Source: Nephrocerus scutellatus (Eukaryota; Arthropoda; Insecta; Diptera; Pipunculidae). From it: a stretch of 64,000 nt of DNA. The notes under the pieces were generated by a model. It ran no database searches and was not told the DNA's origin. It was given only the letters and a program-made list of their open reading frames with translations. The stretch covers positions 37,907,260-37,971,259 of the forward strand of contig OX352761.1 of the NCBI GenBank assembly GCA_947095585.1. The letters are read 5' to 3'. Made by a program: the position numbers and the translations under genes. How positions within the stretch are numbered: position 1 is the first letter of the stretch; every line of letters begins with the position of its first letter. Positions 33,130 through 53,099 of the stretch are shown here, in pieces.

Positions 33130-34498
33130 ATGCAACCAGAAGAAATAAAACTTCAAAAGGGAGCAGAAGCAAATAGAAGAACCACACATAGAACAGAATT
33201 CACAAAGTTGGATAGACGACGAAGCAAACAATTGATTTTAAAGAGCATTTTAAAGCAATTCAAGAAAAGTTAAGAAGACAACAGCTTCGAGAAAAAAAAT
33301 TAAATAAAAGTGAAATAAAAGAAAAGAAGGAAGAGCAACTTTACGTGGCATAAAATATCCAAGTCGAAAGCCCCAACGTGTTCCGAAAAATAGATGAAGA
33401 AATTCAGACCATACAACATACCAGCTGCATTAAAATTTGACAGAAAGGAAAGTGATACCTCAGCTATAGAATCAACACAATCAACAGATCCAGCAGTGAT
33501 CCAGCAACTAAAAGAAGAACCAATTGAAGAAAATCTCCAGCAACCAACAAATTCAAAAAATAAGGTAACAATGGCAACTATAACTATTGATCCATTAAAA
33601 TTAGTGAAGAAATTACCATACTTCAACGGTAAAACATGTAATTTAATTATATTCATAAAAAAGTCAGAATTTATAATGAGCACAGTCATTTTACACAATG
33701 AACCCGCAAAAGAATTTATAGTTAGTGAAATAAAATCAAAAATCACAGATTATGGATTAGAAGTAATATTACGGGGTGGTGGTGACCCAAATAGTTGGCA
33801 AAAAGTAAAGAATATATTAATTAGAAATTTCGGAGAGAAAGAATCCTTTTTAAAATTAAAAGAACAAGCAGATAGAGTCTATACTAAGAATATAACTCAG
33901 CTTTATAATTCATATTCAGACATTCTTTGTAGATTAAATAATAAATATTATCTATCGGAAGACAAACCAATAGAATATAATTCTAGCAATAATAAAGCAT
34001 CATTACTAGCTAAATTCTGCGAAAAATTCCACCAAATGCTAGTTCAATTATAATTAAATCATAACATAAAAACTTTAAGTGAAGCTTTCTATAAATTAGA
34101 AGCCTGTCATTGGACAAAGGAAGAAAATAATAATTTTCGAAGTTTTAGAAATAACAATAATAATTTTAATGACAAAAATTATAAACAAAATAATAACTAT
34201 AATACAAATCAAAGAAATAATAGGGATTATAAAAACGAACCAAGAAATTCAAATAACAATAGGAATTTCAATAACAAAGGCCAGAACTTTTATAGAAACA
34301 ATAATCAAAACTATAGGAACCAAAATGAACAAAATTATAGGCAACCAAACAGAAGTGGAAATTTTTCTAATAATAATCGTAACCCATTTGCCACACAAAA
34401 AAAAAGAAATGATCCAGAACCAATGGAAGTAGATCACCTTACTCAAAATACAGCAAATTTTCAAACACCTGCCTCAACAGACCATTACCCTGCATAGA
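33130..34498 (+). pseudogene. gag: Errantivirus gag, broken
   Basis: This encoded the structural Gag protein. A start at 33,130 (MQPEEIKLQKGAEANRRTTH) soon meets a stop. A 219-codon frame (33,394-34,053) carries the capsid-like part (DPLKLVKKLPYFNGK, then VILRGGGDPNSWQKVKNILI). After a stop and frameshift near 34,053 the Asn-rich nucleocapsid-like tail follows (about 34,120-34,440), ending near MEVDHL. No CCHC knuckle is present, as is usual in the 17.6/297 group, whose Gag has an Asn/Arg-rich tail. It is decayed. Confidence 0.75.
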
Positions 34499-34504
34499 TG
34501 TTCA

Positions 34505-35313
34505 TATTCTTAATAAAAAACTTAGATTTTTAGTAGACACAGGAGCAGCTACATCTATTTTAAAAGAAAATATATTCCCAAGACATTTTGAAAGTAAATT
34601 AGACAGTATATAATATAATATATATAATGAAAAACAAGTAAATACTAAAATAATTTTACCATTACCAATCGAATTTAATAAAAGAGAATCAACCATGGAA
34701 TTTTTAATATCTCCGATTACCAACAGTTCATTTGACGGAATTTTAGGAAATAATATCCTTATACCATTAGAAGCCGAAATATCATATTATACTCATACAT
34801 TGAAAATTAAAAATACTAATATCCCATTGCTCCCAAAACCCAAGGAATACCCTTTAGATAGTTATATTCAAGAATTATCAAAAACACAAATAAATTTATG
34901 TGGTATTGATTTAGCTTTACAAGACCTAACCGACAAATTAACTAAACCTTATATGAACAGAGAAGAAAAGATAGCTCTAAATCAAATATTAAAAAATAAT
35001 AAACAATTATTCTATAGAGAAGGAGACATTTTAACTAACGTAAAAGAAGTAACACATAAAATTGAAACTAAAAGTGATAAACCAATATATTCACGTCTAT
35101 ATAGATATCCAGAAGTACATATAAAAGAAGTCGATAAACAAATAATCGAAATGCTAGAACAAGGCATAATAAAAGAAAGCAACAGTCCATACAATGCTCC
35201 TATCTGGGTCGTTCCCAAAAAGATAGACAATTCAGGACTTAAGAAATGATTATATAGATTATAGAAAACTTAACGAGATAACCGTGGAAGACAAGTTTCC
35301 TATTCCAAACATT
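34505..35313 (+). pseudogene. pol: Errantivirus pol, 5' part (protease and start of reverse transcriptase)
   Basis: The protease active site FLVDTGAATSI is encoded at about 34,528-34,560. The frame then has a stop near 34,610. A long frame (34,695-35,249) runs through the linker to the start of reverse transcriptase (YRYPEVHIKEVDKQIIEML, then SNSPYNAPIWVVPKK), followed by a frameshift near 35,245. Translation is cut at 35,313 by the nested element, directly after the PIPN motif. The gene resumes after the CATT duplication at 46,121. Confidence 0.8.
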
Positions 35314-36107
35314 TGTAAGGAAGATTTTGGGCGCTCCCAAAATCACCCATACAATACAGTGTCAACCAACCAACCACCACAACACATCTCAGCGGACCAG
35401 GTTCCACCCTAAATACATTTTTATATATTTAATACATTTCATGAATTAGAATTTGAAATAAAATAAATCTGAAAATTAAATGCCTTAAATTAGAACACTC
35501 ACTATTAGGAACTCACGATTAGAACAAATAATTATAGAATACTTAGAAAGAATATCGGAAATATTCTCGAATAAATTTATTATGTAATACTCACGATTAT
35601 TTTAAAGATTAGAAATAAGCACCCTGAAGAGTAATAAAAATTGTAACGGGCTTTACTCCATAGCACTGCGCCGACAATTGCAAAGCAATACTCATGGCAA
35701 CACACAGCGGTAAATTGAATATTTACGCGAGTGAATGCCAACGAGTAACACGAGAAAACAAAACATTAGAAAGAAAACAAAACATTAGAAAACAACAACA
35801 TAGAACAAGAACAACAACACGGTGCTTGGGTCTAGCATGCAGGAGGATGAACACACATTACGAACGCGGACATTGACACACACAGTACACACATGGGTAT
35901 CAGCATGGCATGCACGCTGCAAGCAGGCAAGTGCAGTATGCATGCGCATACATACGGCGGGGACAAGGGCATGGCGCATGGCATCACATTGCATACAGAC
36001 AGAGACAATGTGTATGCGCATGGCAACGGCAGGGACAAACGAACATACATGACGAACACACATGAAATTATTTCAATGCATGCTGGACCAAAGTACCGTT
36101 AGTTAAG

Positions 36108-36115
36108 TATAAAAG
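36108..36115 (+). promoter_or_regulatory. TATA box of the LTR promoter
   Basis: TATAAAAG in gttaagTATAAAAGaagact. Transcription would start about 30 bp on, near 36,138, placing the hairpin array in the transcribed leader. The same box is at 44,669 in the 3' LTR. Confidence 0.7.
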
Positions 36116-36174
36116 AAGACTGCTGACCGGTCAAAGGGAGAGTTTGTGGTGAACCATCGCACGGTGCAGAGCGG

Positions 36175-36180
36175 GTAAGT
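36175..36180 (+). promoter_or_regulatory. Possible 5' splice site in the leader
   Basis: gcgg|GTAAGT matches the donor consensus, about 37 nt after the presumed start of transcription. If used, the hairpin array would be intronic. A possible acceptor is gcttacctcag near 37,538, but the evidence for it is weak. Confidence 0.35.
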
Positions 36181-36216
36181 GGCCTTGTTTTTAGTCTTAT
36201 TCTAGTTAGTTATACA

Positions 36217-37205
36217 TATCTTACAGCTTCCCCCCACCAGTGGTAAGGGGTTGTAAGATATTATCTTTAGGTTATATATAATTTGTAGCTTCCCCCCACC
36301 CGTGGTAAGGGGTTACAAATTATTAGCGCAGGAATATAGTTTTTCTACGGTTTGTAGCTCCCCCCACCCGTGGTAAGGGGTTACAAACCATCAATATTAT
36401 ATTCACTTGTAGCTTGGCAGAGGTTATACCTCTCCGCAGTTGGTGGCTCAGTTTTTTTGTTTCAGGTTTAGCTTTTTCTACGGTTTGTAGCTTCCCCCCA
36501 CCCGTGGTAAGGGGTTACAAACCATCAATATTATATTCACTTGTAGCTTGGCAGAGGTTATACCTCTCCGCAGTTGGTGGCCCAGTTTTTGTTTCAGGTT
36601 TAGCTTTTTCTACGGTTTGTAGCTTCCCCCCACCCGTGGTAAGGGGTTACAAACCATCAATATTATATTCACTTGTAGCTTGGCAGAGGTTATACCTCTC
36701 CGCAGTTGTTGGATCAGTTCTTTTTAGACGTAGCCATATATACATAGCTTGTAGCTTCCCCCCACCCGTGGTAAGGGGTTACAGGTTATTATTCCTAGGT
36801 ATTATCCATAAGTTATATATGATTTGTAGCTTCTACCACCCGTGGTAAAAGGTTGCAAGTTATTAGAAATAAGGGCTAGGTTCTCCTTTTCTTTATACTT
36901 ATACGGTTTGTAGCTTCCCCCCCACCCGTGGTAAGGGGTTGCAAACCATATATTTCGCTCATAGTTTGGCAGCGGTTATACCTCTCCACAGTTGGTGGAT
37001 CAGTTGTATTCCAGATTTAGCTCTTTCTACGGTTTGTAGCTTCCCCCCACCCGTGGTAAGGGGTTACAAACCATCAATATTATATTCACTTGTAGCTTGG
37101 CAGAGGTTATACCTCTCCACAGTTGGTGGCTCAGTTTTGTTTCAGGTTTACCTTTTTCTACGGTTTGTAGCTTCCCCCCACCCGTGGTAAGGGGTTACAA
37201 ACCAT
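36217..37205 (+). repeat. Array of ten related hairpins in the LTR R region
   Basis: Each unit reads (stem)gcttccccccacccgtgg, taagggg, (stem'). The inner stem ccac/gtgg and the cccc/gggg stem are constant, while the outer stems differ yet remain paired: tatcttaca/tgtaagata (36,217-36,260), ataatttgta/tacaaattat (36,278-36,323), ggtttgta/tacaaacc (several). One unit with G-T pairs is atagcttgta/tacaggttat (about 36,744-36,790), and a variant uses an extended taccac/gtggta core (about 36,815-36,862). In most intervals a second hairpin agaggt-tat-acctct follows, in a ~131-bp higher unit with cttgtagcttggc and ttggtggctcag. The role is unknown. Confidence 0.85.
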
Positions 37206-37445
37206 CAATATTATATTCACTTGTAGCTTGGCAGAGGTTATACCTCTCCGCAGTTGTTGGACAGGGTAACATTTATAGTAGTAAGCCCCATCCCACGCAA
37301 CGCACCATGCGAATGACGAGACCAACTCCCGCGTCAGAGACTTCTGAGTGAGTGAGTAAATTATACTAACCCCATAGAACTCGTGAGTACGTAAGTAAGA
37401 AATTGTACATTTATATAAAGTTGATTATTGTAATTACCGCGATTT

Positions 37446-37451
37446 AATAAA
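37446..37451 (+). terminator. Polyadenylation signal of the LTR
   Basis: AATAAA in tttAATAAAagatctgtcct. The copy that would be used is at 46,007-46,012 in the 3' LTR. It implies an R region of about 1.3 kb, unusually long. Confidence 0.65.
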
Positions 37452-37556
37452 AGATCTGTCCTTATAACTAAAATCTGTTGACTTTAACTTAAAAATTTTC
37501 TGTAACGAACCGCTGGATCCGCTGAGCTTACCTCAGCCTAAGAAACTTCGTTACAG

Positions 37557-37575
37557 TGGCGCCCGAGCAGGGACT
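37557..37575 (+). other. Primer-binding site, tRNA-Lys-like
   Basis: TGGCGCCCGAGCAGGGACT starts one base after the LTR end. It matches the 3' end expected of a lysine tRNA except for one position. Confidence 0.75.
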
Positions 37576-37893
37576 ATTATTCACAGAAAATCATAGACGT
37601 CAACACACGCAAAGGACATCTCCAGTAAAGCTCACAACCCCGCACACACCCCCCACGGAACACTAAGAAGAAAAGAAAAAAAAAACTCAACGCACCGCCA
37701 GCTGCAAACTCGCCACAGCACCACAGAAGACTACGTCTAGTACGCGTCCACGCATCGCCGCTGCAAACTCGCTACAGCACCACAGAAGACAACGTTAATT
37801 TCACTCCGACGCATCAGCCAGTGTAAACTCACCAAGTTCACAGCAGAGGACAACGAGTATTATCACACAGTCCATAGCGATCGACTACCCAGC

Positions 37894-38964
37894 ATGAAAA
37901 CCGCGTGGATATATACGCTCCGGAAGGAGGAGCTGATAACCTACGCCAAGGAATTCGGGTTAGATGAGACCGGCACCGTGGAGGAACTCCGAAAACGCTT
38001 TTCCGCCCATGTCAACGAGGAGGAGCTCAAACCAGAAGCAAAAGAGCGACTTCTCATCTTGGAAACCCAGCACACGAGAAGCGTTTCCCCAACACCTCCC
38101 GCGATTACCGTCACCCAGGTAGAAAATATCAGCTTAAGCCCAGCGACATTCGTCCCACCACGATGTACGTCCACACCATCATATTCAGCGGTCATCGACC
38201 AAGTCAGGAAATGGTCTGTGAAATTCGACGGTGTGCGCGACCCACTAGCCTTCATTGAACGGGTCGAAGAATTATCGGTTGTCTATGGGATAGACAAAGA
38301 TTTCCTACCACGTACGATGCCAGAACTCCTCAAAGATAGGGCCTTGATCTGGTACAGGAACAATAACGGTCATTGGAAGACGTGGGAAACATTTAGGAAC
38401 AACTTCCTGAAGTTTTTCCTCCCAGCACGCTTCTTTGAACGATTGGACGACGACATCCGCCAAAGAAAACAGCTCCGGAAAGAATCGTTTAAAGACTACG
38501 TGATTACTCTCCAGAACCTGATGCGCCACGCCCAGTACAACGAGGACCAGAAACTGGAACGAATTTTCCGCAACAGCCGCCAGGACTACCAATTATACAT
38601 AAAGCGAAAGGACTTCGCCTGCCTCGAAGAGCTGATTAATTTAGCCGAGGATTTCGAGTGTCTCAACTGCGGCAGTCGAAACGACGAAACACCATCACGA
38701 CCACCAAGACAGGACGAGCAGCACCGACAAGTCGCCCAGATGCCAGGAGGAGCAGTCAACCCACGATCAGCATGCCGCCGATGCGGCCAGCAAGGACATT
38801 TTTTGAGAGAATGCCGCAACCCTAGGATTCTGTTCTGCTGGGAATGTGGTAAACAAAATACCAGGAGCATCGACTGCTGCCGTCGACCGGTGGGAAATGC
38901 CAACGGGTTTCGCCGAATGCCAGGGATGGTGGAACCCCAGAATCCTACGCCCCGGCAGAACTAG
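37894..38964 (+). CDS. gag: Gag polyprotein with SAP-like domain and zinc knuckle
   Basis: This 356-residue structural protein forms the particle and binds the RNA. Residues ~8-42 (LRKEELITYAKEFGLDETGT, then VEELRKRF) look like a SAP-type helical domain. Residues ~100-250 form a retrotransposon capsid (KFDGVRDPLAFIERVEEL, ALIWYRNN, then FRNNFLKFFLPARFFERLDD), related to the Arc/Gag family. A CCHC knuckle CRRCGQQGHFLREC starts at residue 294. A second Cys cluster CWECGKQNTRSIDC lacks the His and is degenerate. The start at 37,894 is the first ATG after the ~320-nt leader. Pol is in the -1 frame and the two overlap over 38,853-38,964. Confidence 0.93.
   Translation: MKTAWIYTLRKEELITYAKEFGLDETGTVEELRKRFSAHVNEEELKPEAKERLLILETQHTRSVSPTPPAITVTQVENISLSPATFVPPRCTSTPSYSAVIDQVRKWSVKFDGVRDPLAFIERVEELSVVYGIDKDFLPRTMPELLKDRALIWYRNNNGHWKTWETFRNNFLKFFLPARFFERLDDDIRQRKQLRKESFKDYVITLQNLMRHAQYNEDQKLERIFRNSRQDYQLYIKRKDFACLEELINLAEDFECLNCGSRNDETPSRPPRQDEQHRQVAQMPGGAVNPRSACRRCGQQGHFLRECRNPRILFCWECGKQNTRSIDCCRRPVGNANGFRRMPGMVEPQNPTPRQN
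38892..38898 (+). promoter_or_regulatory. Candidate -1 frameshift site GGGAAAT
   Basis: In gag frame the heptamer reads G GGA AAT, the X XXY YYZ pattern. It lies 40 nt after the last pol-frame stop (TAA 38,850-38,852) and 66 nt before the end of gag. The pol frame is open from here to 42,095. A slip here would yield Gag-Pol, with pol lacking any need for its own ATG. A downstream structure was not established. Confidence 0.65.
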
Positions 38965-39053
38965 AACGACTGAAACATCAGAATGGGACCGAAAACCACC
39001 ACGCAATTAAACACCTACAGATACTTCAGCAAGAAGAGGACCGCATAGCCGCT

Positions 39054-42000
39054 ATGATAACCATAGGAGGAGAAGAAATCACCGCGACAATCGACACAGG
39101 AGCGACGAGGAGTTTCATTAGTGAAGCCTATGCATACGAAGTACGACACACGGGACAGACAAGTAGAACGGCGACATCAGTACGGATGGCGAACGGTACA
39201 ATAAGACGGGTGGAACAGGCGTTCGAAACTACGATAAGATTCGAACACAGCTGCTGCAAGATTCAGCTACTCATCCTGCCAGAGGCCATCGACAAAATAA
39301 TCCTAGGATTAGATTTCCTCAGCCGAGTCAAAGCAACGATTACCCTAGGTGGGCAGACCCTTACACTCAGCGATAATACAACCAATACTCAGCCGGAAGA
39401 ACCGCAAGTGCGTGCAATTCAAAGTAAGACTCCAAGCGACGACGACAAGATCAGATATTTCCTGGACCATGAACTATCGCAGTTCGAGTCAATGAACGGC
39501 GTTTCCAATATAACAAGCCACAGGATCGAGATGCAGGATGACCGACCGTTAAAACAACGTTATTTCCCGAAAAATCAGGCCATGCAGCGTATCATCGACG
39601 AAGAGATCGACGACCTGCTGGAAAAGAAGTGCATCGAACCATCCAAGAGCCCCTACAGTGCCCCAATCGTCCTAGTGAAGAAGAAGACCGGGAAATGGAG
39701 ACTTTGCGTGGACTACAGACAGCTGAACTCTAAGTCTGTTCCAGATGCTTACCCACTTCCAAGGATCCACCACATCCTTGACCGCCTCAGAAACGCAAAA
39801 TACATCAGCAGCTTGGACCTCAAGAATGGGTATTGGCAGATTCCGATGGAAGAGGGCAGTAAGAAGTACACAGCATTCACGGTACCAGGGCGTGGATTAT
39901 TCCAATGGCGCGTCATGCCTTTTGGCCTGCACTCGGCCCCCGCAACGTTTCAGCGAGCACTAGACCAGGTCATCGGCCCAGATATGGAACCTCACGCTTT
40001 CGCCTATCTGGACGACATCGTCGTGACTGGGGAATCTTTGGAGGACCACATGAGGCATCTAAAGGAAGTACTGCGACGGTTACGACAAGCGAACCTAAGG
40101 ATTAACACGGAGAAGTGCGAATTCTTTAAAAGGGAAATCAAGTATCTGGGACACATGGTCAGCGAGCAAGGAATCCACACTGACCCAGAGAAAATCGCGG
40201 CTATACAGGAACTCCGACCACCTGCTACTCTACGAGAACTCCGACGCTGTCTTGGGATTGCCTCGTGGTATAGACGATTCGTTCCTGAGTTTGCCAAGGT
40301 CGTCCAACCACTTACGATCCTCTTGAAGAAAGGGAAACACTGGAAGTGGACCGACGCACAACAAGCCGCATTCGACCAGTTAAAAGACCGACTCACGAAA
40401 GCACCAGTTCTCGCCTGCCCAGATTTCGAAAAGAAGTTTACCCTCCAGACGGATGCAAGCGATTATGGACTTGGGGTGGTACTAACGCAAGACATCGATG
40501 GTCAGGAAAGGGTTATTGCCTACGCCAGCCGCCATCTAAATTCGGCGGAACGCAATTATTCGGCCACAGAGAAGGAGTGCCTCGCCATAGTGTGGGGCGT
40601 CCGTAAAATGCGACCCTACTTGGAGGGGTACCAGTTTACAATCATCACAGATCATTTAGCGTTGAAATGGCTGAACTCGATTGAGAGTCCATCCGGACGA
40701 ATCGCCCGATGGGCGTTAGAATTGCAGCAGTATACATATGAAATACAATATCGACGAGGAAAATTGAATGTTGTTGCCGACGCACTATCACGCCAGCCAA
40801 GGGAGGTCCTGCGGACAGCAGTGGTAGACGACGACGAAAAAGGCTGTAGCTGGCTGGAGAAAAAGAAAACGGAGGTAAGGAAAAACCCTGAGAAATTTCC
40901 AGATTACGTCATAGAGGGCAAAGAACTGTATCGTCACATCTCCCGTCAGACCGCAGATGAGGATTGCACCCCCTGGAAATTGTGCGTCCCGAAGTTCCAA
41001 CGAGCACGTGTGCTAAGGGAAAACCACGACGAACCCACCGCTGGACACTTGGGCATTCGGAAGACCATCGCACGCGTTTTGAATCGCTACTACTGGCCAG
41101 GTATGTTCCGCGACATCAGCCGGTATGTACGGCGCTGCGAGTCCTGTCAGAAGTACAAGTGTATTCAACAGAAGCCGGCCGGAGCCATGCTGTCCCAGAT
41201 CGCAGACGAACCATGGAGTACAGTGTGTGCAGATTTCGTCGGACCCCTACCCAGAAGCAAGCACGGCAACACGGTCATGTTAGTGTTATTCGACAAGTTT
41301 TCCAAATGGACGGAGATCATCCCTTTACGAAAAGCAACGACAGAGTCGTTAAGGAAGGCGTTCCGCGAACGGATATTGGCCAGATACGGTGTCCCAAAGA
41401 TTTTTGTGAGCGACAACGGTGTCCAGTTTACCAGCGGCCTATTCCGAAGGTACCTGCAAGGATTGGGGGTCAAGCACCAGTTCACCGCCCCGTATACGCC
41501 CCAGGAGAACCCTACAGAGAGAGCCAACCGAACGATAAAGACGATGGTCGCCCAGTTCGTTGGCGAACAACACAGGGAGTGGGATGAACTCCTCCCCGAA
41601 ATCTCGTTGGCAATTAATACAAGTATCGCAGAATCAACAGGCTTCACACCAGCGTTTCTCACACAAGGTCGAGAACCTCGTCTGCCACGGACACTCTTCG
41701 ACGAGAGGACGAGCGGAACAGGGCATGTCGAACAGTCACCAAAAGAAAGGGCGGAACGTCTCCAAGAAGTCTTCCAACTTGTACGCAGAAATCTAGAGCA
41801 AGCAGCCCAAAATCAAGCCAGATATTACAATCTCCGGCGTAGACCCTGGAAGCCCACAGTCGGACAGATGGTCCTAGTTAAGCAGCACCACTTGTCCAAG
41901 GCAATCGAAAGTTTCACGGCGAAACTCGCCCCACGGTATGACGGACCACATGAAGTCATCGGCTTTGTATCCCCAGTAATCGTCCAGCTTCGCACAGGCG

Positions 42001-42095
42001 GCAAAACTCGCACCGCACACATCAGCGACCTGAAAGAATATAACAGCGATGACACAGCAGCCCAGCCGAAAGAAGGTACCACCGTCCCAAAATAA
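39054..42095 (+). CDS. pol: Pol polyprotein: protease, reverse transcriptase, RNase H, integrase
   Basis: The coordinates start at the first ATG (1,013 residues), but the frame is open from 38,853 and is probably entered by a -1 slip at 38,892. Domains in order: aspartic protease (DTGATRSFIS, Asp14), reverse transcriptase (PYSAPIVLVKKKTGKWRLCV, LDLKNGYWQIPM, YLDDIVV at 318-321), RNase H (TDASDYG, Asp467; catalytic ITDHLALKW), and integrase. The integrase has an HHCC zinc finger from His658 to Cys695/698, catalytic Asp727, Asp787 and Glu822, and a GPY/F-like C-terminal module (LAPRYDGPHEVIG). Every key catalytic motif is present and no stop interrupts. It makes and integrates the cDNA copy. 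Confidence 0.96.
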   Translation: MITIGGEEITATIDTGATRSFISEAYAYEVRHTGQTSRTATSVRMANGTIRRVEQAFETTIRFEHSCCKIQLLILPEAIDKIILGLDFLSRVKATITLGGQTLTLSDNTTNTQPEEPQVRAIQSKTPSDDDKIRYFLDHELSQFESMNGVSNITSHRIEMQDDRPLKQRYFPKNQAMQRIIDEEIDDLLEKKCIEPSKSPYSAPIVLVKKKTGKWRLCVDYRQLNSKSVPDAYPLPRIHHILDRLRNAKYISSLDLKNGYWQIPMEEGSKKYTAFTVPGRGLFQWRVMPFGLHSAPATFQRALDQVIGPDMEPHAFAYLDDIVVTGESLEDHMRHLKEVLRRLRQANLRINTEKCEFFKREIKYLGHMVSEQGIHTDPEKIAAIQELRPPATLRELRRCLGIASWYRRFVPEFAKVVQPLTILLKKGKHWKWTDAQQAAFDQLKDRLTKAPVLACPDFEKKFTLQTDASDYGLGVVLTQDIDGQERVIAYASRHLNSAERNYSATEKECLAIVWGVRKMRPYLEGYQFTIITDHLALKWLNSIESPSGRIARWALELQQYTYEIQYRRGKLNVVADALSRQPREVLRTAVVDDDEKGCSWLEKKKTEVRKNPEKFPDYVIEGKELYRHISRQTADEDCTPWKLCVPKFQRARVLRENHDEPTAGHLGIRKTIARVLNRYYWPGMFRDISRYVRRCESCQKYKCIQQKPAGAMLSQIADEPWSTVCADFVGPLPRSKHGNTVMLVLFDKFSKWTEIIPLRKATTESLRKAFRERILARYGVPKIFVSDNGVQFTSGLFRRYLQGLGVKHQFTAPYTPQENPTERANRTIKTMVAQFVGEQHREWDELLPEISLAINTSIAESTGFTPAFLTQGREPRLPRTLFDERTSGTGHVEQSPKERAERLQEVFQLVRRNLEQAAQNQARYYNLRRRPWKPTVGQMVLVKQHHLSKAIESFTAKLAPRYDGPHEVIGFVSPVIVQLRTGGKTRTAHISDLKEYNSDDTAAQPKEGTTVPK

Positions 42096-42166
42096 CTAAA
42101 AAAAAAAAAAAGAGAAAAAAAAAATAATAATAAATAAATAGAATTTAAAATACCCCGTTAGCCAAC

Positions 42167-42220
42167 TATAAATAGGACGGCCCTATTCAAGTAGATCATC
42201 AGTCAGTGACCGACGTCAGT
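42167..42220 (+). promoter_or_regulatory. Internal core promoter between pol and the Ulp1 ORF
   Basis: TATAAATAG at 42,167-42,175 is followed by overlapping arthropod initiators TCAGT at 42,199, 42,203 and 42,216. The first has its A 34 bp from the TATA start. The promoter lies in the 178-bp gap after the pol stop and 54-75 bp before the third ORF's ATG, after an A-rich tract (42,100-42,140). The spacing suits independent transcription of the third ORF. It is inferred from motifs only. Confidence 0.6.
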
Positions 42221-42273
42221 AAAGACAGCGTTTTAAGCAGGTTAAGAAGTTTTTTTAAATTTTTTTTAACACA

Positions 42274-43866
42274 ATGGAAAACAAACCAACAACCAAGCAA
42301 AGTTTGGAGGCAGCGAAGAACCAGGCTAGGGAAGAGTTGGAGCGCCTCCAACTGGAGAGGCCAGTTATCCAAGCCATCGGAGACGAGTGGGAGGAGACCC
42401 GAGACCCCAAGACCGGAAGGATGTCGGTCAAACGTCGGCAACCACAGGACCCGTCCGGTACCAAACTGGGACGTACTACAGAGACCCCTTACACCGCCTT
42501 CAAGGAAGAGGAGGCCATCATCCTCTCCAGCGGTGACGATGAAAGCAACGACAATATGACTGGTTACGTCCTCCCACCCAGCAGGAGCAAGACTCAACTC
42601 ACGGTCGAGGACTATGGCCGGTTGAGCATCGGCCGTTTTCTCAACGATCGAATTATCGAATTCTGGCTGCAATGGATCCAGGACAGGCTCACAGCAGGAC
42701 AACGGGCAAAGATCTACGTAGCAAATTCGTATTTCATGGACCGTCTCACGCGAATCAAGCGAGAGGAGGAAGAGACACTGAGCAGCTTGATGGCCCGTCG
42801 ACATGCGGCCGTCGCCAACTGGACGAAGGAGGTGAAAATTATGGAAAAGGAATATCTGGTCTTTCCGATAAATCAGGAGCTCCACTGGTTTCTCGTCATC
42901 GTCCAGCTGGAGAAGGGCCGGAAGGTTCCCCATGGCGAGGTCCTAGTTTTCGACTCCCTCCCTAAAGCGTCAACCAATTACCACACAGAGGTACTCCGGC
43001 AGTACCTTGCGGTAGAAGACCATGCCAGAGGACACGACGGCAGCCCCGGACGACGGTTTACCTCAATAACCCTGCCAGAAAAACGAGTGCGGATCCCACG
43101 GCAGACAAACGGCACCGACTGCGGCTTGTTCCTGCTACACTGCGCGGAAGTTTTCTTAAAGGATCCCACGAGGTTGGTACGGACGCCTAAAGGCCCGGTG
43201 TTGCCCTTCGACCCCAACACAGTATCAGAGAAGAGACGCGAGATCGCGGAGGTGATCCAAAACCTTGCTCAGGGAGGACTACCGAATATCAAGCTCCCAT
43301 ACCGGGAGGGACGCCAACATGCCCCGGTACAGCAACACGACGACTTCGGCGATGGACACAGCGGAAGAGTCAGCAGAGGCAGCGACAACCAGGGGGAGCG
43401 CCAACATTCCCAGGTACAGCAAAGCGGCGGCTTTGACGATGGACACGGCGGGAGCGTCAGCGTAGACAGTGAAACCCGGGAAGACCGCCACCATTCCCCG
43501 GTGCGCATCGGCACACTTAGCGTGGACAACCGGGAAGACCGCCATCATTTCCCGAACCGCGAAGTTCGCGGCGAGAGTAGCAGCTTAGAAGCAATCGAGG
43601 ACAACGGCAGCGGCAACACAACAGCAGAGGAAAAACAATTATCAGAAGAAAGGGGGACGGGCAACGTAGAGCCCCGTTCTCCCAACTCAGTCCGAGGACC
43701 GCTGGACCAGTGGCCCCAAGAGGTTATGCGACGCATCAACCAGGCAACACAGACCCGGAACCGGGGACAACAAATTAAGTTCTACGTCAGAGCAGCAGGG
43801 CATGAGTATCGTGTCCGCATCACCAGGAACGGAGGAGTGGCGGTTCAGCTTGCCAACCCGGAGTAG
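42274..43866 (+). CDS. Ulp1/SENP-like C48 cysteine protease ORF of the retrotransposon
   Basis: This 530-residue protein lies where env would be. Residues ~108-135 (LSIGRFLNDRIIEFWLQWI) match the start of the Ulp1 fold. Catalytic His204 (ELHWFLVIV), Asp227 (VLVFDSLP), Gln277 and Cys283 (RQTNGTDCGLFLLHCAEVF) follow in the canonical order, with the usual six-residue Gln-Cys spacing. Known family members cleave SUMO precursors or conjugates; others remove NEDD8 or ubiquitin or act as viral proteases. Residues 1-100 are charged, ~355-430 hold ~33-residue acidic/His-rich repeats (DDFGDGHSGR, GGFDDGHGGS), and the last ~60 (PQEVMRRINQATQ, then EYRVRITRNGGVAVQL) form a separate small domain. No signal peptide or membrane segment is visible, arguing against Env. 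The ATG context ACACAATGG is good. Confidence 0.9.
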   Translation: MENKPTTKQSLEAAKNQAREELERLQLERPVIQAIGDEWEETRDPKTGRMSVKRRQPQDPSGTKLGRTTETPYTAFKEEEAIILSSGDDESNDNMTGYVLPPSRSKTQLTVEDYGRLSIGRFLNDRIIEFWLQWIQDRLTAGQRAKIYVANSYFMDRLTRIKREEEETLSSLMARRHAAVANWTKEVKIMEKEYLVFPINQELHWFLVIVQLEKGRKVPHGEVLVFDSLPKASTNYHTEVLRQYLAVEDHARGHDGSPGRRFTSITLPEKRVRIPRQTNGTDCGLFLLHCAEVFLKDPTRLVRTPKGPVLPFDPNTVSEKRREIAEVIQNLAQGGLPNIKLPYREGRQHAPVQQHDDFGDGHSGRVSRGSDNQGERQHSQVQQSGGFDDGHGGSVSVDSETREDRHHSPVRIGTLSVDNREDRHHFPNREVRGESSSLEAIEDNGSGNTTAEEKQLSEERGTGNVEPRSPNSVRGPLDQWPQEVMRRINQATQTRNRGQQIKFYVRAAGHEYRVRITRNGGVAVQLANPE

Positions 43867-43874
43867 AAGGGGGG
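43864..43874 (+). other. Polypurine tract of the Gypsy element
   Basis: tagaaggggg-type purine run ending immediately before the 3' LTR TGTAAGG; the primer for plus-strand DNA synthesis. It overlaps the end of the Ulp1 ORF's stop codon region. Confidence 0.7.
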
Positions 43875-46116
43875 TGTAAGGAAGATTTTGGGCGCTCCCA
43901 AAATCACCCATACAATACAGTGTCAACCAACCAACCACCACAACACATCTCAGCGGACCAGGTTCCACCCTAAATACATTTTTATATATTTAATACATTT
44001 CATGAATTAGAATTTGAAATAAAATAAATCTGAAAATTAAATGCCTTAAATTAGAACACTCACTATTAGGAACTCACGATTAGAACAAATAATTATAGAA
44101 TACTTAGAAAGAATATCGGAAATATTCTCGAATAAATTTATTATGTAATACTCACGATTATTTTAAAGATTAGAAATAAGCACCCTGAAGAGTAATAAAA
44201 ATTGTAACGGGCTTTACTCCATAGCACTGCGCCGACAATTGCAAAGCAATACTCATGGCAACACACAGCGGTAAATTGAATATTTACGCGAGTGAATGCC
44301 AACGAGTAACACGAGAAAACAAAACATTAGAAAGAAAACAAAACATTAGAAAACAACAACATAGAACAAGAACAACAACACGGTGCTTGGGTCTAGCATG
44401 CAGGAGGATGAACACACATTACGAACGCGGACATTGACACACACAGTACACACATGGGTATCAGCATGGCATGCACGCTGCAAGCAGGCAAGTGCAGTAT
44501 GCATGCGCATACATACGGCGGGGACAAGGGCATGGCGCATGGCATCACATTGCATACAGACAGAGACAATGTGTATGCGCATGGCAACGGCAGGGACAAA
44601 CGAACATACATGACGAACACACATGAAATTATTTCAATGCATGCTGGACCAAAGTACCGTTAGTTAAGTATAAAAGAAGACTGCTGACCGGTCAAAGGGA
44701 GAGTTTGTGGTGAACCATCGCACGGTGCAGAGCGGGTAAGTGGCCTTGTTTTTAGTCTTATTCTAGTTAGTTATACATATCTTACAGCTTCCCCCCACCA
44801 GTGGTAAGGGGTTGTAAGATATTATCTTTAGGTTATATATAATTTGTAGCTTCCCCCCACCCGTGGTAAGGGGTTACAAATTATTAGCGCAGGAATATAG
44901 TTTTTCTACGGTTTGTAGCTCCCCCCACCCGTGGTAAGGGGTTACAAACCATCAATATTATATTCACTTGTAGCTTGGCAGAGGTTATACCTCTCCGCAG
45001 TTGGTGGCTCAGTTTTTTTGTTTCAGGTTTAGCTTTTTCTACGGTTTGTAGCTTCCCCCCACCCGTGGTAAGGGGTTACAAACCATCAATATTATATTCA
45101 CTTGTAGCTTGGCAGAGGTTATACCTCTCCGCAGTTGGTGGCCCAGTTTTTGTTTCAGGTTTAGCTTTTTCTACGGTTTGTAGCTTCCCCCCACCCGTGG
45201 TAAGGGGTTACAAACCATCAATATTATATTCACTTGTAGCTTGGCAGAGGTTATACCTCTCCGCAGTTGTTGGATCAGTTCTTTTTAGACGTAGCCATAT
45301 ATACATAGCTTGTAGCTTCCCCCCACCCGTGGTAAGGGGTTACAGGTTATTATTCCTAGGTATTATCCATAAGTTATATATGATTTGTAGCTTCTACCAC
45401 CCGTGGTAAAAGGTTGCAAGTTATTAGAAATAAGGGCTAGGTTCTCCTTTTCTTTATACTTATACGGTTTGTAGCTTCCCCCCCACCCGTGGTAAGGGGT
45501 TGCAAACCATATATTTCGCTCATAGTTTGGCAGCGGTTATACCTCTCCACAGTTGGTGGATCAGTTGTATTCCAGATTTAGCTCTTTCTACGGTTTGTAG
45601 CTTCCCCCCACCCGTGGTAAGGGGTTACAAACCATCAATATTATATTCACTTGTAGCTTGGCAGAGGTTATACCTCTCCACAGTTGGTGGCTCAGTTTTG
45701 TTTCAGGTTTACCTTTTTCTACGGTTTGTAGCTTCCCCCCACCCGTGGTAAGGGGTTACAAACCATCAATATTATATTCACTTGTAGCTTGGCAGAGGTT
45801 ATACCTCTCCGCAGTTGTTGGACAGGGTAACATTTATAGTAGTAAGCCCCATCCCACGCAACGCACCATGCGAATGACGAGACCAACTCCCGCGTCAGAG
45901 ACTTCTGAGTGAGTGAGTAAATTATACTAACCCCATAGAACTCGTGAGTACGTAAGTAAGAAATTGTACATTTATATAAAGTTGATTATTGTAATTACCG
46001 CGATTTAATAAAAGATCTGTCCTTATAACTAAAATCTGTTGACTTTAACTTAAAAATTTTCTGTAACGAACCGCTGGATCCGCTGAGCTTACCTCAGCCT
46101 AAGAAACTTCGTTACA
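43875..46116 (+). repeat. 3' LTR (2,242 bp) of the Ulp1-bearing Gypsy element
   Basis: Same length and, wherever compared, same sequence as 35,314-37,555, including all hairpins. The TATA box is at 44,669, the array at 44,778-45,766 and AATAAA at 46,007. Identity of the LTRs implies a recent insertion. Confidence 0.95.
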
Positions 46117-46120
46117 CATT

Positions 46121-48034
46121 GAAGACATTTTTAGTAAATTGGGAAGAGCCCAATATTTTACCACTCTTGATTTAGCGAAAGGCTTCCACCAGATATTGGT
46201 GAATCCTAAAGACAAGTACAAAACTGCTTTCTCAATAGCAAACGGTCATTACGAATTTAATCGGATGCCATTTGGACTAAAACATGCCCCCGCTACTTTT
46301 CAGCGAATGATTAATCACGTATTAGAAGAACTTGTAGGAAAAATATGTGTTGTCTATTTAGATGACATTCTCATATTCAGTACATCATTAGAGGAACATA
46401 TTTGCTCAATTAATAAAGTATTTAAAAAACTTAACCAACACAACTTAAAAATACAAATAGATAAATGTAAATTTCTTAGCAAAAAAAACAGAATATTTAG
46501 GGCACGTAATTACTACAAACGGAATAAAGCCAAACCCAGAAAAAATAACAGCAATCGAAAAGATACCTATTCCTTGTACAACAAAACAAATAAAATCTTT
46601 TCTAGGTCTAATAGGTTATTGCAGAAAGTTTATTAAAGATTATTCAAAGGTAGCAGTTCCTATGACTAAATATCTTAAGAAAGGAACAAAGATAAACATT
46701 AAAGACCCAGAATATATAACAGCTTTTGAAGAACTTAAATTACTCATATCTGATGACCCCGTTCTTAAATATCCTGACTATACAAAGGAATTCGTTTTAA
46801 CAACTGGTGCATCAAATTATGCAATCGGATCAGTTCTTTCACAATCAAATCACCCATTATACTATGCATCTCGCACACTCAATGAACATGAACGCAGATA
46901 TAGCACTATTGAAAAGGAGTTATTAAGTATTGTTTGGTCAACAAAATATTTTAGACCATATCTTTACGGTCGCAAATTTAAAATACAAACTGATCATAGA
47001 CCTTTAGTTTGGCTAAGTAACCTTAAAGAACCAAATTCAAAACTCCAAAGATGGAAAATTAGTTTAAATGAATATGATTTTGATATCGAATATTTAAAAG
47101 GAAAAGAAAATCGCGTAGCAGATTATCTTAGTAGACTCGAAGTAAACGCAGTCAATGGAAACGAAGATTCATCGTTAGCCACAAATCATAGTGGAATAGA
47201 AGAATGAAATGATCACATAGGAATTTCAGAATTACCTACAACTATTTTCAAGCATCAAATAGAAGTTATAGAGTCAGAAGGTGAAGGTAAAAATATAAAA
47301 AATTTATATACAGGTATAAGAAGACTCACTATTAAATCAAAAGATGTAGGCGATTATTTTACTGAAGCATTAAGGGGAATTATTACCCGATCACGGAAAA
47401 GTGGCAGTATATTGTCCAAGTTTACAAAATTCAGGAAAAATATGTTGCGCTTTATAGCATTCAAAGTAAACTAATATTACTAAGATGCACTACTCTTTTA
47501 AAAGATTTAAGTAATGCAAATGATGTGTTGAATCTCATTCAAAGGATTCAAGAACAATTTAATCACAAGAAACATATCTTGAAATTAAAAGTGAATACTA
47601 TTTTCCAAAATTAAGAGAATTAATTAGAAGATACATTAACAATTGTACTGTATGTCAAACAGCAAAACATGATAGAAGTCCAGAAAAAATAAAATTTGCA
47701 ATAAGCAAAACTGCACTTAAGCCAAAGGAGCTTATACACATGGACATTTATATTCCAAGTAAAGATATTTACTTTTTAACAATTATAGACAAATTCAGTA
47801 AACATTTGACAGCCTTTCCCCTAGCTAGTAGAAACACTCATAAAATTATTGAGCAGCTTAGAAATTATATATTAGGAAAACCCCAAGAAATAGTATGGGA
47901 TAATGTATTTAATAGTCTAGCGTTTAAAGAATATTGCAATGAAGAAGGTATTAAAATAAAACTCATAACCCCAAATCATAAGACAGGAAACTCAAGCACA
48001 AGGAAGCACAAGAAGAGAAAAAGAACATATTAAA
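46121..48034 (+). pseudogene. pol: Errantivirus pol, 3' part (reverse transcriptase, RNase H, integrase)
   Basis: Continuation of the pol gene broken at 35,313. Reverse transcriptase core [13 protein letters not shown] and [11 protein letters not shown] (46,340-46,370), then a one-base frameshift in an A run near 46,490. RNase H follows at 46,662-47,207, where the first catalytic position reads [10 protein letters not shown] with Gly in place of the usual Asp. Integrase remains as NNCTVCQ (zinc finger), HMDIY (first Asp) and VWDN (second Asp) at 47,640-47,910. A frameshift at about 47,995 follows, with internal loss around 47,210-47,600. Inactive. Confidence 0.85.
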
Positions 48035-48035
48035 C

Positions 48036-49012
48036 TTGAGAGAAAAAATAGTAAAAGCAGTTAGCATATACAATTGTACAATACATTCAACAACATTAAG
48101 AAAACCTATAGATTTTATTCAAAACAAAATAAAAGTAGAAGAAATAGAAGAGATAAGAAAAAGGATTCAAAAAATTAAAGAAGACAATATTAATAAAAGA
48201 AATCAAAATAAAACTGATTTTATTGAACCAGACTTAAATAAAGATGTTCACGTAAAAGCTGACGTAGTAAGAACAGCAAAGAAAATAAATGCAAAATATA
48301 AGAAAACCAAGATAAAAAAAATTGATAATAAATACCATGCAGATAATAAAAAATTACATTAAACCCATTTCAAAAGAAAATATAAATATCAAAGTAGTGA
48401 TAATAATAATTTAATCTCTTTACATTATATGAAAACAATGAAATAAAATATGTAAAACATTTAAAGAAGAGTCCAATATGTATCCAAAACCTTTATAAAA
48501 CAAAGTATGAAAATTGTAAAATAAGATCAAATAAAGATCAAGAATTAATAGAATTAGAAGATGGACTTATTTTAACAAAAAACCTATTAGAAACAAGCTT
48601 AAGAGAATATTGTAATAATATTGATTATAAAATTGTTAAAAATAACCTAATGGATTTTAAAGATTGTAACATTAAAATAAATACAACTTTATTTTTAAAC
48701 AAAAAGAAACCTTTAAACAAAATATTATAATTCCATTATATAACACATTAAGCTTTACAAAAACTAATGTAACATTAGAAGAGATACATATAAATCAAAT
48801 TGAAAATTTTAAAGAATTGCAAGCTGTAAGATACCAAAACAATGTAAAACATGTTATATCATATACAAGTATCACAATCATAATTATTATAATTGCAATT
48901 CTATTATTATATTATACATGTCGAAAAACCCAAAAAATTAGAATTGAAAATAGAATTATAGATACTCAAGAGAACATAAAACTTAAGGAGGGAGGGGTTA
49001 CATTCCCAGAAC
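48036..49012 (+). pseudogene. Integrase tail and errantivirus env-like remnant
   Basis: A Lys-rich frame (48,036-48,362) fits the integrase C-terminus. Downstream, broken frames (about 48,390-48,790) lead to a 71-codon frame (48,817-49,032) with a membrane segment ITIIIIIIAILLLYYTC and a short basic tail, the usual end of an errantivirus envelope glycoprotein. Start, signal peptide and fusion region are not recoverable by eye. It overlaps the purine tract and LTR start. It is decayed and gives no functional Env. Confidence 0.55.
48983..48995 (+). other. Polypurine tract of the errantivirus
   Basis: taaggagggaggg directly before GGTTACATTCC. The same tract precedes the 3' LTR of the minus-strand element (17,827-17,840). 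Confidence 0.7.
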
Positions 49013-49692
49013 ACTCTCACATCACTTTATAATATTATTCATAATACACATTCATAATATTACTCATACGCGCAGTCCTAATGGAAAATTCCATTCCTTT
49101 TACCAATTTCACAATATGATGAAATCATCTTGTTTATTTCACAATATGATGATATCATCCTGTTTACCAATTTCACAATATGATAAATTCATCTTGTTTA
49201 CCAATTTCACAATATGATGAAATCATCTTGTTTACCAATTTCACAATATGATGAAATCATCTTGTTTACCGTTTACACATTCTTATCTTGTTTACCATTC
49301 TGATCCAAAGACATGTTCTAACATGAATTATAATTACCATATTTTGCGATCTAAGAGATCAACATGTTTACTACGTAAATTCAAAACAAGATCAAAGTCC
49401 AAAAGCTAACAAAGAAGTTGGACAGCACACAAATAGTATATAAGTAGTATGCAAAGCTTCAGTTCAGTTCAGTTCTATTCAACCATTCAATACTTCAGTT
49501 GTATCCAGAAATACAGTTTAAGTTTAACTTGCAATTTAAGAATTCAGTTCTAAGTTCTCAGTTTAATTAAGTGCTAATAAATAAAAAGTTGTTTTAGAAA
49601 TTAAAATACTTGTGTTTAATTTAGTTGTGGTGTTTTCATTCGAAAACACAAAATATATTTTTTTTAAATAAATACGAATCGGAAACGAAACT
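48996..49692 (+). repeat. 3' LTR (697 bp) of the errantivirus
   Basis: Full-length LTR. U3 contains five copies of a 29-34 bp repeat (49,100-49,270) with the palindrome gatgaaatcatc. A TATA box TATATAAG (49,437-49,444) is followed by tandem TCAGTTC initiators at 49,459-49,470 and AATAAA near 49,577. It ends cggaaacgaaact and is followed by the ACTC duplication and Helitron coding sequence. Confidence 0.9.
49100..49270 (+). repeat. Tandem U3 repeats of the errantivirus LTR
   Basis: The unit is accaatttcacaatatgatg, aaatcatcttgttt, five copies, two of them slightly shortened or diverged. Each carries an inverted repeat GATGA-AA-TCATC, the form of a site for a dimeric DNA-binding protein. A different but similarly placed palindromic repeat is in the LTR at 17,352-17,450. 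Confidence 0.8.
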
Positions 49693-49887: not shown

Positions 49888-52035
49888 CCTGTAACACAAA
49901 CACGCTTCAGCTTCGTCTTCGCTGCGTTACGATGCAGCCGCTTTGAATTTGCTTTGAACGAATTTTCTCTACAAATATGACATTTTTCAAATGAGAGTTC
50001 TGCCACAGTTCTCTGCTTTGAACTGTCAGGCAAATGCAAATGTTCAGCACTTTTGAACTATAGCTTCCGCTTGTAGCTTCGTTATGCAAAATTTGTAATT
50101 GTGGCGTGCGAGACAAAGTGAGCGGGCCGACTATAGTTAAATTGAAGTTTGTGGTTAGCCAGAAGAGATTGGCACTACGCGAATGTTATAGTTATTTTAT
50201 ATCTGCAGGGAAAATATTATCTATAGCATTATGGTAACATTGAAAATATACTTACGAAAGTATATTTTTATGGTAACATTTGGTGAATTTTTCTGTTTTC
50301 CCTCTTCGCACAGCCTTTCTGCTTTTTGCCATAAATTTGCAGATCATTCGTCATTTAGCAGGTTCTCAGTGTTGTGTGGGAAACTGTGTTGCGCACACTA
50401 CACGATCGTATCAGTCGAATTAATCAAAACGATGTTTGGAATGATGTGAATAGGGATTTTCTTATTTCGTTCATCATTACTAATAATAACATGTTATTAA
50501 ACGCATGTGGTTTGTTTTTTTAATGAAAGGCACAACAATCGCAATCGTTTCTTTTAATTTTTATTATAATTAGAGTTTTTCCCTGATTCCATTGATTCGT
50601 TTTCGTATTGCTTTTATCAATGTATCAACAATTCTTAGAAAAAAAATTGAAACCGGCTACAAACGTGAGGATATATCACATTTCTTCGATTTTTGACGTG
50701 ACGACGTCTTACTAGAAGGTATAAGGGGGTGCATGTTCATAAAGTAAAATGTTAAATGTCCACTGTTAATGTCCCATGTTAAATGTCCCATGTTAAATGT
50801 CCCATGTTAAATGTCCTATGTTAAATGTCCCACTTTTAAATATCAGTACTTTGGGAACTAAGCCATTTCCCAAGCGGTTCGCATGAAATTCGGAATGTAG
50901 GACTAAGATGCGACTATAAGACTTGTTCCTATGGAAATTCTGGGATCTGGCTAATAGGGCCTGGGATTTTGGGAACCAAGCCATTTCTCAAGGGATTCGG
51001 GATTGCGGTTAGTTCAATGCCCAACACACACAAGACTAAAACGAAGAAAATAATTATTCGTAAAATTTTTAATATATCACGTTTTTAAAACGAAGTTAAT
51101 AGTATAAAATAAGATTTAAAATTAAAAACTATTCGTGCATCAATTATCTATTGCATTCGCTCCAGATTGTTAATTTTAATTTATTGTTATACTTTTACTT
51201 TCTTTTACATGGTAAAAGGAAGTATAGTAATCATGACAATTTTCGAACTCGGGATTTTTGCAGATTTCGTTTTAAAAACGTGGTATATTAAAAAATTATT
51301 TTTTTCAAATAACTATTTATAAATAGGTCTCGCCGTTTTCGTCATCGGTCTGTAATTCCTACAGGAACAATCATTAGAACCATCGGAATCACTGACAATA
51401 ACGTTAAGGGCCATATTAATAGTCGTGGATAATGCCATTGATTAATCCATTGTATTCTAAAATAGCCACAAGGATACATTTTAGAATCTATGTTTATAAA
51501 TACGAAAATGGGGATACATCCGCCGATTTAAATTATTATATTTCATTTCATTAAAATTAATTTGTTGTAGTCAAAAAAGTTAGGATTATTCTGCAGTATT
51601 AAGTATAATTTTGTGTATCCTAAAAACTCGGCGACGCGAATTTTTGCCTTTCCAAAATATTGTATTTTTCTTTGTGCTTAATAGCACAATAATCGAATCT
51701 TCTAATAACGCTATAATATGCTATAATGTAGTGTTGGTGTTTATTTTTGTGTGCAGTTGTCTACTTCTCTCTCTTTAGAATGTACATAAATCGAACTCCC
51801 TCATAATTTTCTTATTTGTATCTTCATCTCTTTCGTTCGGTCTTCCTTCCTTGTCATTTTTTCTAACATTTTTCTGAATGTAAATCTTGCATTACGTAAC
51901 ATTACGTTTTTTCTTTACAATTGCCAAATGAAACGTTGAAGCCGAAGCAACATTGTGTTAGGAAGCATTGAAATCGTATGGCTGAACTCGTAAACGTTAG
52001 TCGAAGCCGAAGCTGAAGCGTGTTTGTGTTTCAGG
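49888..52035. mobile_element. TIR-type composite element, ends CCTG(A/T)AACACAAACACGC
   Basis: The left end cctgtaacacaaacacgctt, then cagcttcgtcttcg, is mirrored at the right end (gaagctgaagcgtgtttgtg, then tttcagg). Internal marks of the family are gctgcgttacgatgcagccg, gagttctgccacagttctct, gttacgtaacattacgtttt and aaacgttgaagccgaagc. The centre contains a short-ATGTCC repeat (50,745-50,835, 'atgttaaatgtccc'), one unit of the ~118-bp satellite (50,850-51,000), and a ~45-bp inverted repeat (51,045-51,092 against 51,266-51,315). No transposase gene is seen. It is inserted in Helitron coding sequence; the target duplication is ambiguous. Confidence 0.6.
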
Positions 52036-52504
52036 CATGAAGGAGATGACGACGCATATGATTTAAATGATGATGAACAACAAATTTGTTCAAATAGTAT
52101 CATTCTAAAAGATCAACGTCGAAGTAGAATGCGTAAACGTAAAAGAGCAGCTATAGTAAAAGCTCCTAAATTTTCTGTACGTACTGATCTTGATTCTTAT
52201 TTATATAACCAATTAGTATGTCATATACCTTTTAGACAAGAATTGAATCTTGTTCTAAGTTACGAATCTGTTAGATCTGCATTTGACGCTAGAAAAACAG
52301 AATTAGAAGCACGCCTTGATTCTTTAATATCTTTTCGAAATTTTTCTGACGAATTAAATGCTGCTTTAGAACATATGAACACAATTAGTGTCGAAAATAT
52401 TAATGCAATCGATCAAGATTTGATTGCAGAGCTTCCTGAAAACATTCCTCCAGTTCAAATGTCTGATAAGGTTTTTGAAATGAATGTTCAACGACATAAT
52501 TCCT
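52036..52504 (+). pseudogene. Autonomous Helitron protein, Rep-helicase linker
   Basis: A 150-codon uninterrupted stretch (HEGDDDAYDLNDDEQQICSN to VQMSDKVFEMNVQRHNS) fits the region between Rep and helicase in insect Helitrons: acidic start, then basic RRSRMRKRKRAA. It is cut by the next TIR-family copy. The helicase Walker A region that should follow is not found. Confidence 0.55.
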
Positions 52505-53090
52505 GAAACACAAACACGCTTCAGCTCGTCTTCGCTGCGTTACGATGCAGCCGCTTTGAATTTGCTTTGAATGACTTTTCTCTATATGGCATTTCTCAAT
52601 TGAGAGTTCTGCCACAGTTCTCTGCTTTGAACTGTCAGGCAAATGTTCAGCACTATTGAACTAGAGCTTCCGTTTGTAGCTTCGTTACGTAACATTACGT
52701 TTTTTCTTTACGATTACCAAACGAAACGTTGAAGCCGAAGCGACACTGTGTTAGGAAGCATTAAAATGACTGAACTCGTAAACGTCAGGCGAAGACAAAT
52801 CTGCGTTACGATGCAGACGCTTTACATTTGCTTTGAATGACTTTTCTCTATATGGCATTTCTCAAATGAGAGTTCTGCCACAGTTCTCTGCCTTGAACTG
52901 TCAGGCAAAGCAAATGTTCAGCACTTTTGAACTAGAGCTTCCGTTTGTAGCTTCGTTACGTAGCATTACGATTTTCTTTACGATTGCCAAACGAAACGTT
53001 GAAGCCGAGGCCCTCCCGGTCAACCGCATCTTAAACGTAACGTTTATGACATTTTTGTTACACTAAAAATGTCGTAAACGGTACGTTTTT
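52505..53090. mobile_element. TIR-family copy inside the Helitron (with internal duplication)
   Basis: Starts cctgaaacacaaacacgctt as at 49,888. The block gatgcagccgctttgaattt to aacgttgaagccgaagc occurs twice (about 52,540-52,735 and 52,812-53,010). The right end is less clear. Copies in the other units lie at 57,490-58,075 and 62,473-63,058. Confidence 0.5.
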
Positions 53091-53099
53091 GTGAATTCC

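Follow-up and report, generated by a model that had tools for sequence, protein, structure and literature searches.

What is a gene for a SUMO protease-like protein doing between pol and the 3' long terminal repeat (LTR) of a fly retrotransposon, and how might it serve the element? The window analysed here is a stretch of 64,000 nucleotides from Nephrocerus scutellatus (Diptera, Pipunculidae; contig OX352761.1, positions 37,907,260 to 37,971,259 of the forward strand). It contains a complete and recent Ty3/Gypsy element (35314-46116), nested in the pol gene of an older Gypsy element. The third open reading frame (ORF3; 42274..43866, + strand) encodes 530 amino acids with no internal stop, as had been claimed in the original prediction made from the DNA letters alone. 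ORF3 is an accessory protein made up of a low-complexity N-terminus, a C48 peptidase domain and, at the C-terminal end, a small module. The best explanation for its presence, held here tentatively, is that the element carries a deSUMOylase of SENP6/7 type which weakens the SUMO-dependent silencing of the element itself.

The C48 protease domain

The protease domain spans 42634..43248 on the + strand (ORF3 residues 121-325) and matches Pfam PF02902 (Peptidase_C48) with an E value of 7.6e-23 and 81.9 bits, where the curated cut-off is 20.7; no other Pfam family was matched at E <= 1. The full catalytic set read earlier from the translation is present (H204, D227, Q277, C283), and these residues align to the HW, LDSL and Q...DCG motifs of SENP7. 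The hidden Markov model search that had been proposed as a check has therefore found C48, and the fold is that of the Ulp1/SENP proteases and not a non-Ulp1 fold. When the Protein Data Bank was searched by sequence, ORF3 matched 17 distinct chains at E <= 1, all of them SENP1, 2, 3, 5 or 7, Ulp1 or Ulp2, with SENP7 scoring 98 bits, SENP2 48.7, SENP1 47.9, Ulp1 27.4 and a yeast-type Ulp2 chain 23.4. Because human SENP7 is the nearest solved relative, ORF3 is by sequence a protease of SENP6/7 (Ulp2) type and not Ulp1 proper; the earlier description of an Ulp1/SENP-type enzyme was correct as to Ulp/SENP family and fold, but is amended in this respect.

The Peptidase_C48 domain and the H-D-Q-C set are common to ORF3 and to SENP6/SENP7 (Ulp2; MEROPS C48). 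With SENP7, ORF3 also has a RRHxxVxxWT...P[IV]N...HW stretch in common, and its RRHAAVANWTKEVKIMEKEYLVFPINQELHW parallels the SENP7 counterpart. The likeness has limits, since the HW and LDSL motifs are separated by 68 unaligned residues in SENP7 but by 12 in ORF3, which lacks the large loop insert of SENP6/7; unlike these enzymes, ORF3 is borne by a retrotransposon and has an additional C-terminal module. The sole NCBIfam match was non-significant (E 0.042; 13 bits where the cut-off is 250), and a single-sequence structure prediction of the C48 domain gave a pLDDT of 33. Among the structural neighbours of ORF3 there are a NEDD8 protease and bacterial deubiquitinases, which would suit an enzyme that targets NEDD8 or ubiquitin instead of SUMO, for example in guarding element proteins from degradation. 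Such a specificity is highly improbable, as SENP8 (the NEDD8 protease) is absent from the 17 chains matched by sequence, and SUMO would appear to be the probable substrate.

Position of ORF3 in the young Gypsy element

The element has the LTRs, target-site duplication, primer-binding site, polypurine tract, gag and pol of a Ty3/Gypsy LTR retrotransposon, with pol in the order protease, reverse transcriptase (RT), RNase H, integrase. Its 5' LTR (35314..37555, + strand; 2242 bp) has TG...CA ends and internal 131-134-bp tandem repeats, and the 3' LTR (43875..46116, + strand; 2242 bp) does not differ from it along all 2242 bases. The target-site duplication CATT stands at 35310..35313 on the left and 46117-46120 on the right (+ strand). 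When the flanks are put together through one copy of CATT, the RT of the older element is restored as one open frame, which indicates a clean insertion into its pol. The primer-binding site TGGCGCCCGAGCAGGGAC (37557..37574, + strand), presumably of tRNA-Lys type, follows the 5' LTR, and the polypurine tract AAGGGGGG (43867..43874, + strand) lies just 5' of the 3' LTR. The LTR repeats form arrays at 36271-37260 and 44832-45821, with five copies per LTR spaced 131-134 bp and one gap of 417, and could possibly be a binding array. No further copy of the young element is present in the rest of the window, where its pol matched only the older element.

ORF3 starts 178 bases 3' of the pol stop codon and ends 8 bases 5' of the 3' LTR. 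Its codon usage correlates with that of pol (0.78) and gag (0.72) of its own element, as compared with 0.08 and 0.02 for pol and gag of the older element; within the young element, gag and pol correlate at 0.81. Together with the identical LTRs and the CATT on both sides, these observations bear out the claim that ORF3 belongs to the element. It had also been described as standing in place of env, which is accurate as a position, after pol and before the 3' LTR, but there is no sign that ORF3 took over from an earlier env. ORF3 is not an envelope, since it has no membrane segment (highest KD19 1.13), and with C48 as its only Pfam family it matches no envelope family.

The gag gene (37894..38964, + strand) encodes a Retrotrans_gag domain (E 9.3e-10) and a CCHC knuckle. 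Its N-terminus (37924-38046; residues 11-51) is SAP-like (SAP_new25, E 7.3e-5; 22.8 bits, under the Pfam cut-off of 26.3); SAP is a type of chromatin-binding domain which is also present in PIAS SUMO ligases. The pol gene (39054..42095, + strand) encodes aspartic protease, RT, RNase H and integrase (H2C2 and core) domains, within a frame open from 38853 whose start, in the -1 frame, overlaps the end of gag. The aspartic protease domain (Pfam gag-asp_proteas, E 2.6e-12) bears on the alternative favoured after the silencing role in the original prediction, namely that ORF3 processes Gag-Pol. ORF3 would then be a second viral protease, perhaps acting on ORF3 itself as well, in the manner of the same-fold processing proteases of some DNA viruses. 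That alternative is weakened because pol carries a protease domain of its own. In addition, ORF3 is nearest in sequence to SENP7 and not to viral proteases, and a search of the BFVD viral structures gave no match at E <= 0.001; Gag-Pol processing is therefore considered very unlikely.

How ORF3 would be expressed is suggested by a candidate core promoter at 42167..42204 (+ strand), 70-107 bases upstream of the ORF3 start, in which the TATA-type sequence TATAAATA (42167-42174) and the initiator (Inr)-type sequence TCAGTC (42199-42204) have a spacing of 34. Such a pair occurs in 25 of 5000 dinucleotide shuffles, and the window holds six pairs of this type when both strands are counted, including the one before ORF3. 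No splice donor with 8 of 9 consensus letters is present in 37556-38100, and the stretches scanned before ORF3 hold no AG preceded by more than 8 pyrimidines in 14 bases. As no convincing splice sites were found in these stretches, a separate ORF3 transcript starting from the TATA/Inr pair is possible.

Related elements and the origin of the C48 domain

A search of a protein database with pol scored 7958 proteins, of which 5678 matched at E <= 0.001, and the best 120 of these matches were examined. Where species names are given, the matches as far as rank 73 come from Drosophila and Musca autumnalis, with bees and an ant lower, so that the host would most likely be a higher fly. One of the 120, a protein of 1483 amino acids from another source (P0016), is 60% identical in pol and has a C48 domain fused in frame behind it. 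P0016 is the only one of these relatives with PF02902 in its precomputed Pfam annotation, the only one matched by ORF3 (blastp or phmmer, E <= 1) and, in a Pfam scan of seven of the 120, the only one with C48 (E 5e-21, residues 1104-1273). At least 179 amino acids past the pol match are present in 21 of the 120; three of these were dropped, as the match ends inside pol, and C48 is found in one of the remaining 18 extensions (that of P0016). Only a small part of the 120 therefore extends far enough to reveal an ORF3. All four catalytic residues are kept in P0016 (H1180, D1207, Q1251, C1257), and its C48 domain is likewise nearest to SENP7 (74.9 bits, compared with 38.8 for SENP2). The two C48 domains are 31% identical over 202 columns. 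Since P0016 also holds C48 behind pol, the domain in ORF3 is no private capture of the element in the window.

In a quick pol tree (75 rows taken from 115 of sufficient length, P0034 not among them), the window element falls in a set of 36 with an SH-aLRT of 100. P0016 and two further relatives, P0010 and P0032, are in the same set in no firm order, and P0002 is nearest to the window element by path. In a five-row tree of the C48 domains, P0016 groups with SENP7 and ORF3 falls towards SENP1/2 (88/91), and the branches of both P0016 and ORF3 are very long. Because the two separate in this tree, a single capture is not demonstrated; two captures, or one followed by fast change, both fit.

The same tree bears on whether ORF3 could be a passenger, that is, a host SENP6/7-like transcript recently captured and carried along with no function in the element. 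Separate captures would leave ORF3 and P0016 ungrouped, as they are, and would give the identities seen in the five-way alignment (32.6% and 32.0% to SENP7, 25.7% to each other); the single copy in the 64-kb window would also be expected of a recent capture. However, the very long branches reduce the weight of the tree, and a frame of 530 codons with every catalytic residue intact, an active site kept likewise in P0016, codon usage equal to that of the element and matching tails in the two proteins (see below) all argue against a functionless passenger, which is thus rather unlikely.

Relatives of ORF3 itself were not found in the protein database, either with the whole protein (7995 best candidates scored) or with residues 97-340 (973 candidates), in searches whose length limits hide fusions such as P0016. 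Viral contigs scanned with ORF3, pol or a pol alignment (A1) gave no match, and neither did genome contigs scanned with ORF3. The A1 alignment matched 10 loci in genome contigs, all from bacterial or archaeal bins, and ORF3 had no phmmer match at E <= 1 to their stop-to-stop frames of at least 120 amino acids; these loci test little for ORF3, because several of the short contigs stop within or soon after pol.

The C-terminal module and SUMO-interacting motif-like sequences

Behind the protease domain, 87-bp imperfect tandem repeats (43308..43502, + strand) encode a low-complexity linker, and ORF3 ends in a small module (43714..43863, + strand; residues 481-530) with a predicted alpha-beta-beta-beta structure (helix 482-494; strands 501-507, 510-516 and 522-526; pLDDT block means 71-80). 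The tails of ORF3 and P0016 are similar, with a score reached by 4 of 2000 shuffles. Three relatives with pol-fused extensions that lack C48 (P0010, P0034 and P0032) have tails of the form xVxGxxYRIxVxRxGxVxI, three residues from the end. This pattern, which was drawn up after inspection of the tails, matches 4 of 19 sequences, these three and ORF3, but not P0016; it was met in none of 2000 shuffles of each of the four sequences and nowhere in 133,519 residues of pol parts. The P0010 and P0034 tails are homologous (E 9.9e-11), and a profile built from them gave an E value of only 0.14 on ORF3, with 1 of 3800 decoys scoring higher by whole-sequence score and 2 of 3800 by best-domain score. From these sequence comparisons it is likely, but not proven, that the ORF3-type tail is common to the relatives.

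ORF3 also has a weak SUMO-interacting motif (SIM)-like sequence, AIILSSGDDESN, at 42514..42549 (+ strand; residues 81-92), of a kind which appears in 205 of 2000 shuffles of ORF3. A strict SIM definition, applied to 20 rows (the 18 extensions, the whole of ORF3 and its first 112 residues), matched one of them, P0010, and missed the motif of ORF3 itself. A loosened definition matched 3 of 19 sequences (ORF3, P0010 and P0034) where 0.48 were expected, and matched 12 of 120 pol or gag-pol parts too. As the definition was loosened after the strict one had missed ORF3, the motif evidence is weak and post hoc, and the SIM-like motifs in ORF3, P0010 and P0034 are suggestive only. The pol-fused extensions of P0032 and P0035 have acidic stretches that resemble SIMs, ATIDLPSSEE and DLTVSSSSDADDE, which are counted by neither definition.

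Possible role in escape from silencing

As ORF3 is no envelope and pol has its own protease domain, what remains is a deSUMOylase that works on proteins of the host or of the element. Flies silence such elements by means of SUMO tags, and ORF3 may therefore help the element to escape. A separate transcript would give rise to the protein (relatives of the P0016 kind would produce it attached to the end of pol), which would work as a free protease in the nucleus. There it could strip SUMO, perhaps as chains, off silencing factors at the element's copies, for example Panoramix or proteins that partner Su(var)2-10, leading to less SUMO-dependent heterochromatin and to transcription of the element.

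In fly ovarian cells, silencing by Panoramix requires SUMO (PMC13195609); a cleavable SUMO fusion was mostly stripped by host enzymes and gave weak rescue, while rescue by a non-cleavable fusion was near the wild-type level. Su(var)2-10 is a SUMO ligase thought to connect Piwi with SetDB1 (PMC7272611). In yeast, activation of Ty1 has been ascribed by the authors to lowered SUMOylation (PMC8585004); the direction of this parallel is not simple, because the mutants lie in the deSUMOylase Ulp1 or in its pore tether. An anti-silencing role would agree with the SUMO-dependence of Panoramix and, with that reservation, with Ty1 repression, and it is retained from the original prediction as an inference.

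The enzyme could instead act on the Gag, integrase or pol of the element, keeping SUMOylation by the host from disturbing particle assembly, nuclear import or integration and leaving silencing unaffected. An element-borne deSUMOylase, which this explanation needs, is established as far as a sequence allows; the C48 domain of P0016 lies within the pol reading frame and might be packaged with pol, and a direct part of Ulp1/OTU domains in transposition has been suggested (PMC2836005). In the window element, however, ORF3 is apart from pol, with its own start and possible promoter, and there are relatives whose pol-fused tail comes without C48. Action on the element's own proteins is accordingly judged unlikely, while being the most probable of the rivals to the anti-silencing deSUMOylase.

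A wider form of the anti-silencing proposal, which is speculative and doubtful at present, is that of a fly Gypsy clade with a SUMO-handling ORF3. The common alpha-beta-beta-beta module would direct the protein to the chromatin of the element itself, possibly to the 131-134-bp LTR repeats (compare plant VANC at tandem repeats), and the part in front of it would be a SENP6/7-type protease in some members and a serine-rich arm with SIM-like sequence in others. If true, such a clade would represent a case of animal retrotransposons countering a piRNA silencing that depends on SUMO. To our knowledge, counter-defence by animal transposons is hardly known, and a transposon-encoded deSUMOylase, if real, would be a candidate testable in existing fly cell assays.

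Comparison with known mobile elements

C48 domains have been reported in Ginger1 (PMC2836005), in Cryptons (PMC3212892) and in plant Mutator-like elements (PMC13317346, PMC10398659). The plant elements (KIU/VANDAL) resemble the window element in pairing a transposon with an Ulp-type protease domain and differ in being plant DNA transposons; VANC-type proteins of plant Mutator-like elements reverse silencing (PMC13317346, PMC10398659). In Ginger1 and Crypton, C48 is fused to or beside the recombinase, and there is kinship between the transposase of Ginger1 and the integrase of Gypsy (PMC2836005, PMC3212892); unlike the young element of the window, these are DNA transposons with a DDE or tyrosine recombinase and do not use reverse transcription. 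LTR retrotransposons of bdelloid rotifers have a captured enzymatic ORF3 3' of pol, as here, but their enzymes are a GDSL esterase and a DEDDy exonuclease, and the text of that paper (PMC5408684) does not mention Ulp1, SUMO, cysteine protease or peptidase. Searches of open-licence PubMed Central papers turned up no LTR retrotransposon described as carrying a C48 protease, a scope that leaves subscription papers and Repbase reports to one side. LTR retrotransposons would join Mutator, Ginger and Crypton as groups that acquired C48 proteases, and uptake in all of these groups points to SUMO as a place where hosts and mobile elements commonly exert pressure on each other.

In its long LTRs and primer-binding site, the young element presumably resembles the Osvaldo/Ulysses group of Drosophila Ty3/Gypsy elements, Ulysses having a primer site for tRNA-Lys and LTRs of close to 2.1 kb. 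A paper on this group (PMC5408442) makes no mention of an ORF3.

Remainder of the window

The older, broken Gypsy element that hosts the insertion (33394-49029) has a gag-like frame, pol pieces and an env-like piece (Pfam 'Gypsy', 1e-4, under the cut-off), and is probably of errantivirus type. Remains of DNA transposons at 7182-11189 and 31807-32157 include DDE_Tnp_1_7, DDE_1 with CENP-B_N and a Helitron_like_N piece under the Pfam cut-off; we take the first to be of piggyBac type and the second of pogo/Tigger type. About 7.5 kb of a satellite of about 102 bp, G-rich on the + strand with a GC skew of about 0.5, occupies 22895-30381, and 50000-64000 consists of tandem units of about 4985 bp, with the same frame at 52782, 57767 and 62750.
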